A stretch of 20,026 bases of DNA, taken from a virus. Both the position numbers and the translations under genes were made by a program. The notes beneath the pieces are model-generated. The model was given only the letters and a program-made list of their open reading frames with translations. It ran no database searches and was not told the origin of the DNA. The stretch is from the IMG/VR virus record IMGVR_UViG_3300045107_000088, positions 1 to 20,026 of that record; one strand, given 5' to 3'. Positions 6,647 to 18,728 of the stretch are shown here, piece by piece (the stretch's first letter is position 1; each line of letters begins with the position of its first letter).

Positions 6647-6843
6647 CGACGATTGCCTGCAAGGACGGCGTTATCGCCGCCGATACCGCCTGCCACTCCG
6701 ACGGGCTGTTGATTGGCGCGCCCGGCGACCGCCCGCCGCGATCGCCCGAAGAGCGCGCGATCGAAGCAGCGCTGGCTGCCCGCAACGCCAAGGCCGACGC
6801 AGCCCGCGCCGCCAAGCGCGAGCGCGAGAAGGTGCGCAAATGA
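6643..6843 (+). CDS. 66-residue protein with a proteasome/HslV-like N-terminal fragment
   Basis: Overlaps both neighbours by ATGA. The first 20 or so residues (MTTIACKDGVIAADTACHSD) resemble the start of phage Ntn-hydrolases of the HslV/20S-proteasome type, in which the Thr after Met is the nucleophile. That fold needs about 170-200 residues, but here the sequence moves at residue 25 into an Ala/Arg/Glu/Lys-rich helix (SPEERAIEAALAARNAKADA) and stops. It is therefore likely a truncated and re-used relic, or a small protein with chance resemblance. Translation is supported by the overlaps. Confidence 0.6.
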   Translation: MTTIACKDGVIAADTACHSDGLLIGAPGDRPPRSPEERAIEAALAARNAKADAARAAKREREKVRK

Positions 6844-7805
6844 CCGAGCGCGGCGACATCGGGAAGCTGATGCCGACGGTTGCGCGCGCGCTGCTTGGCG
6901 AGCCGGTGCGCGAGCACTCCACGCCCAAGGACTGGCGCTATGGTCGCAAGGGGTCGCTCTCGATCGACATCGAGCGCGGCACCTGGTTCAGCCATGAAGA
7001 GGATGCCGGCGGCGGCGTGCTGGACCTGATCCGCCGCGAGCGGAAGTGCAGCGTCGCCGAGGCGCTGCGCTGGATCAAGGACGATCTGGGCGCGACGATC
7101 GAGCCGGTGCGCGACACCACCCGCCCGCCCGCACCGCGCGCCAATTACACCGACCTGGCAGTGGCTATGTGGCACGAGTCCATCCCGGCCGCGGGCACGC
7201 TCGCCGAGCGCTATCTGCGCGGTCGCGCGCTGCCGTGCCCGGACTGGCTGCGCTTCCACCCCCGCGCGCCGTTCAAGAAGGACGACAGCGGCGCGCGGCG
7301 CCTGCTGCCCTGCATGATCGCGCCCATGCGCTCGCTGATCGACGGGCGGATCACCGGCGTGCACCGCACGGCGCTCACGCCTAGCGGCCAGAAGGTCGCC
7401 AAGGCCATGCTGGGCGTGTGCGAGGGCGCGGGGATCTGGCTGCGGCCCGTCAGCGAGCCCGACGCCGAGCTGGGCGTGTGCGAGGGTATCGAGACCGGGC
7501 TGGCGCTGATCGAGCTTGGCTGGAGCCACGCGCTGCTTGCGTGCGCCGATGCAGGCCGGATGCGTCGCCTGCCGCTCTTGGACGGCATCGCGCGCCTGAC
7601 GATCTTCGCGGACAACGACCTCCCCGATAGCGACAAGCCGTGCCCGCGCTTCCCCGATTTCGGCGGCGAGGGGGTCGCGTCCGCGCGTGCGCTTGCGGAA
7701 CGCTATATCGAGCATGGCGTCGTGACCGGCATTCGTGTGCCTGATCGACCGGGCGACGACTTCCACGACGAATGGGTTCGCGCGGCTGCCGAGACTGCAG
7801 CATGA
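6840..7805 (+). CDS. Toprim primase-like protein, 321 aa
   Basis: Replication protein with a primase-type N-terminus and a Toprim domain. Residues 32-64 (WRYGRKGSLSIDIERG, then WFSHEEDAGGG) match the CHC2-like region of phage primases but lack its zinc cysteines. The Toprim domain starts at VCEGIETG (213-220, Glu215), continues with IFADND (255-260, Asp258 and Asp260), and a further acidic segment is GDDFHDEW (305-312). These acidic residues bind the metal for primer synthesis. The domain order matches phage and plasmid Toprim_3 primases. The start overlaps the previous stop (ATGA) and the end overlaps the helicase start (ATGA), so primase and helicase are co-translated. Priming activity is inferred from the family. 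Confidence 0.85.
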   Translation: MTERGDIGKLMPTVARALLGEPVREHSTPKDWRYGRKGSLSIDIERGTWFSHEEDAGGGVLDLIRRERKCSVAEALRWIKDDLGATIEPVRDTTRPPAPRANYTDLAVAMWHESIPAAGTLAERYLRGRALPCPDWLRFHPRAPFKKDDSGARRLLPCMIAPMRSLIDGRITGVHRTALTPSGQKVAKAMLGVCEGAGIWLRPVSEPDAELGVCEGIETGLALIELGWSHALLACADAGRMRRLPLLDGIARLTIFADNDLPDSDKPCPRFPDFGGEGVASARALAERYIEHGVVTGIRVPDRPGDDFHDEWVRAAAETAA

Positions 7806-9007
7806 TGGCGAGCCGAGCCGAACCCCCAGGGCAGCCGCTGCCGATCCGCCCGTCCGCGACGCTCGATCCACGCCCGGTCCGCTGGCGCGACGAGGCCGCG
7901 ATTCCGCCGCGCGAATGGCTCTATGGCCGCCACTTGGTGCGCGGGCGCGTGTCGCTGACGATTGCGCCAAGCGGCGTCGGCAAGACCGCACTCAGCATAT
8001 CGGAAGCGCTCTGCATGGCGTCGGGCCAGTGCTATCTGCACCACATCCCCGCCCAGCCGATGCGCGTCTGGCTGTACAATCTCGAGGAGGATTCTGACGA
8101 GCTGGAGCGGCGCTGGCGCGCTGCCGCCAAGCAGTTCGGCCTGCACGAAAGCGACATTGCTGACCGGCTGCTAGTATCCTCCGGTTTCGATCAGCCGCTC
8201 ATCATCGGCCGGTCAGGCCCCGACGGAGTGGTGATCGACCGCGGGCTGGTCGACGAGCTGGTGCGCGTCATCCGCACGATACGCATCGACGTGCTGACCG
8301 TGGACCCGTTCGTGTCGTCACACGGCCTGGAAACCGAGAACGACAATGCCGGCATGGACGCGCTGCTGAAGCAGGGCTGGGCGCAGGTCGCTCATCGCGG
8401 CAACTGCGCGATCGACCTCATCCATCACGTCCGCAAGCTGAACGGCGAGCAGGTGACGGTCGATAGCGCCCGCGGCGGATCGGCCATGGCGGGCGCGGTC
8501 CGTTCGGTCCGCTGCCTCAACGGCATGACGAAGGAGGAAGCCGAGCGCGCCGAGATCGACCCGAAGCGCGCGTGGGCCTACGTCCGCATCGATGACGGCA
8601 AGCGCAACATGTCGCCCAAGGCCGAGCGGGCCGACTGGTTCCAGCTTCACAGCGTCGAACTCGACAATGGAGACAGCATCGGCGTGGCCCGCAAATGGGC
8701 CTGGCCTGCCGACGATGAGCTAACCATGCTGGCGATCGATGCAGTGCAGGCGCGCATCGGCGATGGCGACTGGAAGGCTTCGCCGCGCTCCAAGGCGCGT
8801 TGGGCGGGGCTGGCGGTCGCCGAGGCGCTGGACCTCGATGCAAGTAATCCTGAGGCGCGCATGGAGATCAAAGCCAAGTTGTCGTCTCTAATCGAGGCAG
8901 GATGGCTGAAAGAAGAGGAAGGACGTGACAATGAAAACCGGATGAAGACCATATTCGTGCGGATCGGCCGCCGCGCGGGCGCCAGAGGCATGGGAACTGG
9001 GGAGTGA
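7802..9007 (+). CDS. RepA-type (AAA_25) RecA-fold replicative helicase, 401 aa
   Basis: ATPase of the RecA superfamily resembling the hexameric RepA helicase of RSF1010 and phage equivalents. Walker A is APSGVGKT (55-62). WLYNLEED (90-97) is the second motif region, with the acidic catalytic position. Walker B is LTVDPF (165-170) with Asp168. DLIHHVRK (205-212) carries the motif-3 histidines, and SARGGSAMAGAVRS is the sensor-like loop. The C-terminal 110 residues look like a winged-helix add-on (AVAEALDLDASN, LSSLIEAGWLKEEE). ATG 7802 overlaps the primase stop; ATG 7805 is also possible. Directly downstream is the iteron region, which the helicase is likely to be loaded on. Confidence 0.88.
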   Translation: MMASRAEPPGQPLPIRPSATLDPRPVRWRDEAAIPPREWLYGRHLVRGRVSLTIAPSGVGKTALSISEALCMASGQCYLHHIPAQPMRVWLYNLEEDSDELERRWRAAAKQFGLHESDIADRLLVSSGFDQPLIIGRSGPDGVVIDRGLVDELVRVIRTIRIDVLTVDPFVSSHGLETENDNAGMDALLKQGWAQVAHRGNCAIDLIHHVRKLNGEQVTVDSARGGSAMAGAVRSVRCLNGMTKEEAERAEIDPKRAWAYVRIDDGKRNMSPKAERADWFQLHSVELDNGDSIGVARKWAWPADDELTMLAIDAVQARIGDGDWKASPRSKARWAGLAVAEALDLDASNPEARMEIKAKLSSLIEAGWLKEEEGRDNENRMKTIFVRIGRRAGARGMGTGE

Positions 9008-9110
9008 CCATGCCGAGCGCTGTAACCGGAGTGGTTTGTGCATCGACGCATTTGCGGGTGTCGATGCATGTCGATGCAGTTTGGCCCGAGGCTGCATCGA
9101 CGCTGAATGC

Positions 9111-9152
9111 CGTGTCAATGCGGTTCGCCTTCTACAGAGACGCATTGACACG
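9111..9152. repeat. Inverted repeat 1 (12-bp perfect arms)
   Basis: CGTGTCAATGCG (9111-9122) and its exact complement CGCATTGACACG (9141-9152) are separated by 18 bases. Each arm contains the variant iteron GTCAATGC. Confidence 0.9.
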
Positions 9153-9184
9153 CCCAAACAGCGGAAAAGCCACGGTTTTCCGGC

Positions 9185-9214
9185 TGCATCGACGTTCGCT
9201 TGAGCGTCGATGCA
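9185..9214. repeat. Inverted repeat 2 (10-bp perfect arms)
   Basis: TGCATCGACG (9185-9194) and CGTCGATGCA (9205-9214) around a 10-base loop. The arms are two iterons facing each other. Confidence 0.9.
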
Positions 9215-9265
9215 AAGCAATGTGCGTCGATGCAGTTTCCCGAAAGTCGGTCAGCATGGACCGGT

Positions 9266-9307
9266 TAGGGGGATATATTCTCCTCCGTAGGAGGAGATAT
9301 CCCCCTA
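9266..9307. repeat. Inverted repeat 3, 18-bp stem with a 3-base bulge
   Basis: The left arm (9266-9286) and right arm (9290-9307) pair over 11 bp (TAGGGGGATAT with ATATCCCCCTA) plus 7 bp (CTCCTCC with GGAGGAG). An extra ATT lies in the left arm and the loop is GTA. It is the strongest hairpin in the window. Neither side carries a T-run of terminator type. It may be a single-strand initiation or cruciform element. Confidence 0.9.
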
Positions 9308-9363
9308 CCGTCGATGCACCGATCTTGAGCCGGGAATGGCTCATCCGGGATTGGGGATCGGGG

Positions 9364-9825
9364 ATGAAAAAATTCCACCATCGCATTCGGCTCGCGTCCA
9401 TCGAGCCGCTGGTGATCGAGTATGCCGGGCAGCGTTACGCTTGGGTCAGCGGCAAAAGGTTCAAGACCGAGTGCCCGACCTGCGGCGGCGCGGGCACCGT
9501 CGCCGTCGATCTCCCGGCCGAGACGTTGCCGCGGACCGCATCATGCTGTTCGGCGTGGGCGGACCCCAAGCTCTCGGTCAAAGCCCAAAGGATGCTGAGC
9601 GTTGGGGACACGCTCGCGATCGGCGGCAGGACCGCCACCGTCGCAGCGGTCGACCCGTACACCCGCAAAGACGGCTCGGCATCCCAGCTTGTCACGTGGC
9701 GAATGGACTGCGCGGCCTGCGCCAAGCCCTTCACCTTCACCGGCGGCCGGTTCTTGCGGTCCGACACATCGCGCCGCTGCCCAGCGTGCCGCCCCAAGCG
9801 CGCCCAGACGTCCGATGCGGCCTAA
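9364..9825 (+). CDS. Zinc-binding phage protein with four cysteine knuckles, 153 aa
   Basis: I chose the ATG at 9364 because the peptide becomes protein-like there and lies just after the candidate origin. The same frame is open back to ATG 9010 or GTG 9004, so a longer form cannot be excluded. Cys pairs are Cys37/Cys40 (ECPTCGGAG), Cys61/Cys62, Cys116/Cys119 (MDCAACAKPF) and Cys139/Cys142 (RRCPACRPK). This suggests two zinc sites, with the middle (SVGDTLAIGGRTATVAAVD) forming a small beta barrel. Location between origin and terminase suggests a DNA-linked role, for example initiator accessory or late regulator. No family identified; function inferred only loosely. Confidence 0.65.
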   Translation: MKKFHHRIRLASIEPLVIEYAGQRYAWVSGKRFKTECPTCGGAGTVAVDLPAETLPRTASCCSAWADPKLSVKAQRMLSVGDTLAIGGRTATVAAVDPYTRKDGSASQLVTWRMDCAACAKPFTFTGGRFLRSDTSRRCPACRPKRAQTSDAA

Positions 9826-10315
9826 GCGGTCGGTCCCACCCGACTTCGCAGCCCAGGCCCGGCAGCTCCGCACGATCCGCGCGCTCTGCGCCCACTACCG
9901 CGCCAGCAGCACCCGCGTGCGCCGCTGGCAGGACGAGTGCCCCGTCCAACCAGCCCAGCCCGAGCCACCCGCAGACCTGCCCGGGCGCGCCCAGTTGATG
10001 AGCCTGAACGCCCTCATGCGCCACTACCGCGTCGGCAGGCCGAGGCTCACTGAATGGCTGGACATGGCCGGAATTGCCCGCGACACTCTCCCCGTCTTCC
10101 GCGGCGGGCCGTCACCGAAACCCACGGCGCGACCCGCGCGGAAGGTGCAGCTCGCCCTCAACTACCTCCGCGCCCAGCGGCTCGATGCAGTGTGGGACGG
10201 CGGGCCGGACTACGCGCTGTTCCACGGCGGCAAACGATGGGTGGTAGGCAGGATGAGGCTAGACGCAGACGCAGTTGTCGCACTCGCAGTCAAACGCGGA
10301 TGGAGGCCACAGTGA
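9815..10315 (+). CDS. Tandem HTH-like protein, 166 aa, probable DNA-binding regulator
   Basis: The ATG at 9815 overlaps the zinc protein by 11 bases. Two similar helix-turn-helix-like units occur: residues 20-41 (IRALCAHYRASSTRVRRW) and 63-86 (SLNALMRHYRVGRPRLTEW). They share the pattern A-L-x2-H-Y-R and a Trp near the end. A third region (112-164, including YALFHGGKRWVVGRMRLDAD and an AVKRGW ending) resembles short domains seen in other phage regulators. The basic linker (PSPKPTARPARK) fits DNA binding. Possible roles are late-gene activation, terminase recognition help, or binding the upstream iterons; none is proven. The stop overlaps the terminase small subunit start (GTGA). Confidence 0.65.
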   Translation: MRPKRSVPPDFAAQARQLRTIRALCAHYRASSTRVRRWQDECPVQPAQPEPPADLPGRAQLMSLNALMRHYRVGRPRLTEWLDMAGIARDTLPVFRGGPSPKPTARPARKVQLALNYLRAQRLDAVWDGGPDYALFHGGKRWVVGRMRLDADAVVALAVKRGWRPQ

Positions 10316-16843: not shown

Positions 16844-16889
16844 CGCCTACAATCGGGGTGCAATGCGCGCCTCGGCTGTAACCGTTTGC
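16838..16889 (+). repeat. 52-bp dispersed repeat, copy 2
   Basis: Starts at the last codon and stop of the 68-residue gene, spans the 19-base gap, and includes the first nine codons of the tail adaptor gene. It is 38 of 52 identical to 12265-12316, including GACTGACGCCTACAATC. The ATG of copy 2 is ACG in copy 1. Possible late promoter (TACAAT at 16848-16853). Confidence 0.5.
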
Positions 16890-18728
16890 AATCGCGCGCT
16901 GGCGCTTGTGCCAGCCAACGCGATCGCCTCGCTTGACGAGAACAGCCTTGAGGCGCGCGAGTGCGCGCGCGTCTACCAGGACGCGATCAACGAAGCAGTC
17001 GAGCGCGGACAATGGTCCTTCGCCCGCGACCGGGTGGCGCTCGCGCAGGTGGCGAACCGGCGCCCGGACGAATGGGCCTTCGCCTACGCGCTGCCCACCA
17101 CCGGGCAAGTCGTGGGCGTGTTCCCAGCCACCGGCGAGCCGATCGATTTCACCTCCTACGACTATGACAGCGAGGCGCGCTGGGGGCGGCCGATCGACCG
17201 CACAGTTCGCTATATCGTCGCGGCGGATGCGCTCTATACCGATCTCGCCGATGCGCAGGCCGACATTGCGCTGACCGACCCGGACCCGAGCCGCTTTCCG
17301 CCGCTGTTCGCCGCGGCGCTGGCCGTCGACGTGGCTGCGCGCGTGTGCATGGCGATCACCAAATCGTCGAACCGCCAGCGCGAGCTGATGATCATGGCGG
17401 AGACGGCGTGGGACCGCGCGCTCAGCCACGAGCTCAACGAGCGCCGCTCCAAGCCCAACCTGTATCTGGGTGGCAGCGTCACGGGCGCGCAGCCGGGCTA
17501 TTCCGCGTCGGCACTCTCGCCATCCGGGCTGACGGTTCAGTCTACGCTGTCTTCGCAGATCAGCGATTTCAGCAGCGCAGTGCGAGCCCAGATCGTCGCC
17601 ACGCTCATCGCTGGGTCGAACATCACACTGACGCCGCAGGGCGACGGCTCGGCGGCGACCATCCGCATCGCAGCGGCAGGCGGCGGCAGCGGCGGAGTCT
17701 CGGACGGGAACAAGGGCGACATCACCGTCTCGAACAGCGCTGCCACATGGACCGTGAACGCGTCGGTGCTGGCCGGGCGCGAGCCAGCGATCACCGCGGG
17801 CACCACGTCGCAATATTGGCGGGGGGACAAGGCGTGGGCGACGCTCGATCGCACGGCCGTCGGACTGGGCAATGTCGATAACACCTCCGACACCGGCAAG
17901 CCCGTCAGCACCGCGCAGGCCGCTGCCATTGCCACCAAGCTGAACGCCTCCGTCGTGTCCACCTTCGGGCTTGGCCTGATCGGCGTGGCCGACGCAGCGA
18001 CTGGGCGCACCACACTGGGCCTGGGGACTGCTGCAACCGCCGCGGCGAGTTCGTTCGAACCAGCCATTACTGCGGGCAGCGCAAGCCAATATTGGCGCGG
18101 CGATAAAGCCTGGGCGACGCTGAACGCTGCGGCAGTGGGGCTGGGGAACGTCGACAACACGTCGGACGCGAACAAGCCGGTCAGCACCGCGCAGGCGACG
18201 GCGATCGGCGCGAAGCTCAATGCCTCGGCCGTATCGACCTTCGGGCTGTCGCTGGTGGGCGCCGCGGATGCAGCAGCCGCGCGCACGACGCTGGGCCTGG
18301 GCACGGCCGCGACCGCGGCGGCGTCGTCGTTTGAGCCAGCCATCGCCACCGGCACCACCGACCAATATTGGCGCGGCGACAAGACGTGGGTGGCGCCTCC
18401 CATCGTCGTTGCCTTCGGGTGGTCGGGCAAGCCCGGCGCGTCCGACGTGCAGTCGGTCTGGCCGGAGCGCAGCTTCACGATAGCCTCCGGGTCCACCGAC
18501 AAGCGCGGGCAGATTGCAGTCGGTGCGACCGGAACGGCCGTCGATATCACCGTCAACCGCAACGGCACGACGATCGGGACGATCCGCGTTCCAACGACCA
18601 CGGGCGCGCCCACGTTCAGCTTTCCGTCCGCCGTGTCTGGCAGCGCGGGCGACCGGCTCGATTTCATCGCGCCTGCCACACAGGACGCGACGCTTTTCGG
18701 CGCGCGTTTCCAGATCATCTTGCGTTGA
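16863..18728 (+). CDS. Tail tubular A (Gp11-like) adaptor fused to fibre repeats, 621 aa
   Basis: Residues 1-205 match the T7 Gp11-type head-tail adaptor: VCNRALALVPANAIASLDE, ARECARVYQDAINEAVERGQ, WSFARDRVALA, and a helical FPPLFAAALAVDVAARVCMA, ending about where the separate protein normally ends (T7 Gp11 is about 196 aa). A Ser/Gly-rich linker (about 206-280) leads into tail-fibre repeats: two full 92-residue copies (307-398 and 399-490, 83% identical) plus a third partial copy (491-509). They contain the known fibre motif GLGNVDNTSDANKPVSTAQ. The end (515-621) is a beta-rich tip-like domain (SFTIASGSTDKRGQIAVGAT and so on). The frame is unbroken. It likely builds the adaptor ring and carries fibre or receptor-contact material on it. 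Linkage and roles are inference from recognised motifs. Confidence 0.85.
   Translation: MRASAVTVCNRALALVPANAIASLDENSLEARECARVYQDAINEAVERGQWSFARDRVALAQVANRRPDEWAFAYALPTTGQVVGVFPATGEPIDFTSYDYDSEARWGRPIDRTVRYIVAADALYTDLADAQADIALTDPDPSRFPPLFAAALAVDVAARVCMAITKSSNRQRELMIMAETAWDRALSHELNERRSKPNLYLGGSVTGAQPGYSASALSPSGLTVQSTLSSQISDFSSAVRAQIVATLIAGSNITLTPQGDGSAATIRIAAAGGGSGGVSDGNKGDITVSNSAATWTVNASVLAGREPAITAGTTSQYWRGDKAWATLDRTAVGLGNVDNTSDTGKPVSTAQAAAIATKLNASVVSTFGLGLIGVADAATGRTTLGLGTAATAAASSFEPAITAGSASQYWRGDKAWATLNAAAVGLGNVDNTSDANKPVSTAQATAIGAKLNASAVSTFGLSLVGAADAAAARTTLGLGTAATAAASSFEPAIATGTTDQYWRGDKTWVAPPIVVAFGWSGKPGASDVQSVWPERSFTIASGSTDKRGQIAVGATGTAVDITVNRNGTTIGTIRVPTTTGAPTFSFPSAVSGSAGDRLDFIAPATQDATLFGARFQIILR
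17781..18389 (+). repeat. 276-bp coding tandem repeat in the fibre part
   Basis: Two full 276-bp units (17781-18056, 18057-18332) and 57 bp of a third (18333-18389). Each encodes 92 residues starting EPAI and ending AAASSF. The DNA has drifted at many third positions while protein identity stays high, so the repeat is not very recent and appears to be under protein-level selection. Confidence 0.9.

Follow-up and report, generated by a model that had tools for sequence, protein, structure and literature searches.

The window, by which we mean the whole stretch of DNA analysed, is a 20,026-base virus fragment recorded without a host. Besides the replication genes collected in Table 1, it encodes both subunits of the terminase, an S24-type repressor, a YqaJ nuclease and a portal protein, of which a search of viral contigs found no relatives. 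The helicase has the RecA-fold core of the RSF1010 RepA family (AAA_25), as seen both in its sequence (hmmsearch E 2e-25 against RSF1010 RepA, 1g8y, core only) and in its fold (Foldseek E 6e-13, TMt 0.76 against 1nlf). Unlike RSF1010 RepA, which lacks a winged helix, it is predicted to carry an extra one at its C-terminus. In the AlphaFold2 model (pLDDT 88.6; 89.6 for the winged-helix domain alone), this domain spans residues 305-390, with helices at 310-321, 336-343 and 351-366 and strands at 370-376 and 383-389, between which the wing sits. Residues are numbered from the codon at 7799 in a 402-residue model, the likely start Met being at 7802. No family in Pfam, PHROGs or NCBIfam describes a winged-helix or origin-binding part for this helicase. 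The winged helix has no sequence match among solved structures, origin-binding domains included, and the 50 matches listed in a fold search are generic winged helices, with the P4 origin-binding domain not among them.

Table 1. Features of the replication locus (window coordinates).
Feature	Position	Strand	Remarks
Toprim primase (DUF7146 + Toprim_3)	6840..7805	+	Pfam DUF7146 1e-22, Toprim_3 3e-10; PHROG DNA primase 7e-32
RepA-like (AAA_25) hexameric helicase with C-terminal winged helix; proposed origin-binding initiator	7802..9007	+	Pfam AAA_25 9e-35
C-terminal winged helix of helicase	8711..8983	+	predicted structure; outside RepA match
R330 codon, R/Q residue tracking first (C/G) base of relatives' repeats	8786..8788	+	
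Wing D-N-E-N-R-M-K, residues 377-383; base-tracking N380, R381, M382	8927..8947	+	
Iteron GTCGATGCA	9039..9047	-	exact copy
Iteron GTCGATGCA	9060..9068	+	exact copy
Iteron GTCGATGCA	9070..9078	+	exact copy
Iteron GTCGATGCA	9093..9101	-	exact copy
12-bp perfect inverted repeat CGTGTCAATGCG/CGCATTGACACG	9111..9152	.	holds iteron-like GTCAATGCG copies, 9114+ and 9141-
Iteron GTCGATGCA	9185..9193	-	exact copy
Iteron GTCGATGCA	9206..9214	+	exact copy
Iteron GTCGATGCA	9226..9234	+	exact copy
Hairpin between iterons, 19-bp arms, Y-rich/R-rich, CCGTAGG centre, ATATAT tract	9266..9307	.	DNA fold z = -5.7
Iteron GTCGATGCA	9310..9318	+	exact copy

Directly 3′ of the helicase gene, beginning 32 nt past its stop, eight exact copies of GTCGATGCA crowd into 280 bp, five on the plus and three on the minus strand, and the rest of the window holds none. 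In 100 dinucleotide shuffles of the 20 kb, the mean was 0.37 copies and the maximum 2. The pairings recognised in the sequence-only reading are all present: a direct pair (9060/9070) with a spacing of 10 bp, and facing pairs that form perfect inverted repeats (9039/9060, 9185/9206 and 9070/9093). The two copies it had described as carrying one mismatch, which are the GTCAATGCG copies, carry two mismatches each. The core CGATGCA occurs 13 times in the window against 6.7 expected, eight of the 13 lying in the cluster, where the G+C content falls locally to 56%. Copies of this core also lie at 8737, 8836 and 10183 on the plus strand, inside the genes for the helicase and the HTH protein, close to the proposed origin.

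The hairpin among the iterons is a candidate for the place where the DNA melts or the primase starts; it does not match an intrinsic terminator, and a search of Rfam gave no match. Palindromes of the same Y...TA...R form are found in many relatives, and the central hairpin beats all 20 shuffles in 34 of 95 cases, so that it is frequent, not universal. The central palindrome is thus a weaker claim than the iterons.

The cluster was compared with about 120 related viruses. Two scans of viral contigs gave 474 and 520 relatives of the helicase, from each of which 80 were kept, and redundant lineages were collapsed to 58 helicase lineages. The cluster position was scored as the 300-nt window richest in repeated 8-mers. 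This strongest repeat window starts no more than 300 nt from the helicase stop in 47/58 lineages, and that first band makes up on average 11% of the locus; in four more lineages it lies 300-1200 nt past the stop, mostly with an inserted gene. The window studied here is itself among the remaining seven, since in this measure its iterons score below the 51-bp tandem repeats at 1.1 kb. In one clade (L079, L112), a frame that looks HNH-like by eye lies roughly 0-450 nt past the end of the helicase gene and shifts the iterons ~450 nt downstream. A detectable cluster is absent in a few relatives (L043, L190 and L033). The helicase is also carried by plasmid prophages of Microvirga, Methylobacterium and Rhodoplanes and by a Rhizobium phage. 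The prophages have a repeat cluster directly after the helicase, with a different repeat in each, and the Rhizobium phage has no cluster there. With hundreds of viral contigs encoding the helicase, the replicon is hardly the unusual one that the sequence-only reading took it to be. The type of primase that accompanies such a helicase is exchangeable: the window and L039 have a Toprim enzyme, L063 a Prim-Pol fused to the helicase, and L042 a protein that weakly matches RepB_primase.

The repeat differs from lineage to lineage and mostly follows the pattern [G/C]TGNNGCA. Examples are GTGTCGCA, GTGGGGCA, GTGCGGCA, CTGACGCA, CTGGAGCA and CTGATGCA, and the repeat ATCGATGCA, shared by L088, L097 and L099, is one base off that of the window. 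Searches of other viruses for the exact 9-mer found no tandem pattern, and the inverted pattern matched only unrelated single pairs. The motif is therefore private to the window: what relatives keep is the kind of repeat and its place, not the 9-mer. Failure to find the 9-mer in relatives had been proposed as an argument against an origin, but that test does not suit a system in which repeats and protein diverge in step.

How closely they do so can be read from the helicase itself. In an alignment of 38 helicases from a single clade, none of the 418 columns is more informative about the repeat centre than the two wing columns flanking a conserved Arg (fractional mutual information 0.86 and 0.75). 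Pairs of loci whose ATPase parts are 70-97% identical again put these columns first and second, of 393, for repeat identity: the residues match in 88% and 82% of pairs with the same repeat vs 18% and 20% of pairs with different repeats. Two rules were fixed before the held-out loci were fetched. H, K or R after the wing Arg goes with A or C at the second variable base, and M, N, D or E with G or T; the wing Arg itself should accompany GCA, and loci that have lost it should carry GAA or GGA. Every scorable case among 31 unseen contigs obeys these rules. Automated scoring found agreement in 21/21 and 16/17 distinct wing–iteron combinations overall, the exception (L083) being a strand miscall, and in 9/9 and 5/5 held-out ones, together 14/14, a modest number (Fisher p = 5e-4). 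With each lineage-state taken once, the residue after the wing Arg fits the base class at the second variable position in 43/43, which 0 of 100,000 permutations reach. The Arg is present with GCA at 82 loci and absent with GAA/GGA at 11; two further loci are one misalignment and one strand miscall. A fourth position, before the second helix, was found afterwards and not pre-stated: R accompanies CTG and Q accompanies GTG repeats in 77/77 loci scored by script, and L193, which lies outside the script's pattern, breaks this rule (Q with CTG). Residue a bears just a loose relation to the first variable base (e.g., L142). A close pair is L075 and L092, whose ATPase parts are 95% identical, with QRR and GGAGCA sites in the one vs QRH and GACGCA sites in the other. 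Kinship among the contigs was handled by collapsing lineages and by sister pairs, without a full phylogenetic model.

The window fits the proposed code at the tested positions. Its wing residues N380-R381-M382 stand beside the repeat T-CG-AT-GCA, so that Arg is paired with GCA and M with T, the latter as in L061 (TRM, GATGCA); the window wing has a one-residue insertion, around which it was aligned manually. The first base of its repeat is T, which is beyond the C/G scope of the R/Q rule. The chemistry would be sensible, in that basic side chains would go with bases paired to keto-bearing partners, and neutral or acidic side chains with the reverse case.

Because residues of the winged helix change in step with the letters of the repeats, we take the helicase to be the reader of the iterons; the co-variation indicates that its C-terminal domain determines iteron recognition. 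We propose, with a probability of roughly 0.87, that 9039-9318 is a phage replication origin and that the RepA-like helicase encoded upstream is its initiator, acting on the iterons through its C-terminal winged helix. That such an iteron arrangement beside a RepA-like helicase and a Toprim primase would be a replication origin, the core of the sequence-only reading, is strongly supported by its recurrence in about 50 lineages and by the likeness of the helicase to RSF1010 RepA in sequence and fold. Its proposal that separate downstream proteins bind the repeats was not supported.

In a corresponding RSF1010-like scheme, the zinc protein (9364-9825) or the tandem-HTH protein (9815-10315) would bind the iterons and the helicase would merely be loaded. 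RSF1010 itself uses a separate RepC, and weak Pfam matches do place HTH and zinc-ribbon proteins just downstream. Yet genes downstream of the cluster are not common to lineages with the same architecture (median 1/52 vs 52/52 for the helicase), searches of viral contigs found no relatives of the zinc or HTH proteins, and it is the winged helix of the helicase, and no neighbour, that co-varies with the repeats, so that we consider a separate initiator improbable. It is about as doubtful that the sites are an operator for the downstream operon (helicase or regulator) instead of an origin. The cluster sits between two genes, its last site often near the next start codon, but no promoter-like or terminator-like site was found in 8900-9500, and an array of 7-11 sites around a palindrome is origin-like. 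Moreover, passages of PMC7581432 and PMC6092414 present 3′ iterons as the origins, or putative origins, used by the helicases of SaPIs, PICIs and SCCmec Cch2. The helicase may use these sites as an operator or for silencing.

That the cluster is repetitive DNA inside a coding region, or arose by chance, is strongly disfavoured and in our view very remote. The frame 9004-9825 is open, and so across 9010-9363, and the sequence-only reading had recognised that an ordinary conserved domain translated from 9010 would speak against an origin; the translation of 9010-9363 gave no convincing family match, and open frames are common at high G+C. Open forward frames cross the clusters in 31/67 relatives' loci vs 12.9 expected in shuffles. 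We read this excess as stop-poor repeats rather than coding, because the translations match no protein family. Against chance, the exact repeats on both strands far exceed what shuffled sequence gives, and the architecture recurs across lineages.

From the repeats, their position, the fold and the co-variation, all obtained by computation, we infer the following physical course of initiation at the proposed origin. The winged helix of the helicase would bind the iterons 3′ of its own gene, the residue near helix 2 and those of the wing contacting the variable bases. Binding would gather helicase subunits around the palindromic, AT-rich centre at 9266-9307, where the DNA would melt, and the hexamer would be loaded or assembled on the exposed strand. 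The adjacent Toprim primase would then lay primers for the host polymerase. The module would thus be a self-contained replicon consisting of a primase, an origin-reading hexameric helicase and 3′ iterons.

Replication of RSF1010 uses RepA, RepB′ and a separate initiator, RepC. The window shares with it the helicase fold (1g8y/1nlf), a primase nearby, and iterons with a hairpin, the strong hairpin of the window being a possible counterpart of the ssi hairpins of RSF1010. In contrast, initiator and helicase appear to be fused here, no neighbouring gene being shared among lineages, and the primase is of the Toprim kind, with Prim-Pol or RepB-like enzymes in its place in relatives. P4 alpha also has primase, helicase and a winged-helix origin-binding domain in one module, with short iterons, but it carries an SF3 helicase, whereas the core in the window is AAA_25/RepA-like. 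That the P4 origin-binding domain is a winged helix is due to Yeo et al. (2002), as cited in a passage of PMC4234260.

The likeness to the Rep-ori units of SaPIs and PICIs is closer. According to passages of PMC7581432 (citing Ubeda 2007), SaPI helicases recognise, by their C-terminal domain, iterons directly downstream of their own gene; in SaPIs and Gram-negative PICIs, the origin lies immediately 3′ of rep, with iteron sets flanking an AT-rich or palindromic centre (passages of PMC7581432 and PMC6092414). The window likewise has a primase and a putative helicase-initiator (sometimes fused in SaPI/PICI), iterons immediately 3′ of the helicase gene and, as judged from co-variation, C-terminal recognition of them. 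It differs in that its helicase is of the RSF1010-RepA type (AAA_25, RecA fold), that four base-specifying residue positions can be read, and that these phage genomes have their own capsid genes. SaPIs and PICIs are satellites without virion genes, whereas the window encodes both terminase subunits and a portal. SCCmec Cch2 binds a putative origin directly 3′ of its gene (PMC7581432), and pRN1 ORF904 similarly has its origin directly 3′ of the gene for the replication protein; both belong to other helicase families, and few or no diversified iterons are described for them in the relevant passages of PMC7581432 and PMC4234260. The system would therefore work like SaPI/PICI and P4 alpha yet belong to none of them, being set apart because its helicase is RepA-like and its genome has its own virion genes.

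A Rep-ori arrangement is thus already known in kind. What appears to be new is its RepA-type helicase base and the specificity code; no report of this helicase–iteron code was found in the literature searched, in which subscription journals are poorly covered. We think it likely that these helicases form a widespread, unnamed family of phage initiators, whose near-deterministic code (R/Q330 specifying the first base, and wing residues 380-382 both the variable bases and the C in GCA) reads hypervariable origins. If so, origin specificity would be predictable from protein sequence, and very few changes in the wing would switch it. Since protein and iterons change together, each lineage would have a private origin specificity, and families would behave in a manner comparable to plasmid incompatibility groups. 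The origins of most environmental phages are unknown, and the rule would place them on the 3′ side of genes for RepA-like helicases that end in a winged helix and would also predict the origin repeat from the helicase protein. The natural initiator–origin pairs, some differing by very few residues, lend themselves to studying how replication specificity evolves and raise the question of whether phages sharing a host avoid cross-initiation.

Two other repeat arrays lie in the window. The 51-bp tandem repeats (1124-1375, 4.7 copies) fall within a minus-strand frame, 980-1642, which encodes repeated SEASKRAWADPEVRARM-type units that look NUMOD-like by eye. At 17780-18382, 276-bp repeats (2.2 copies) lie in the frame 16863-18728, possibly a tail fibre with duplicated modules.
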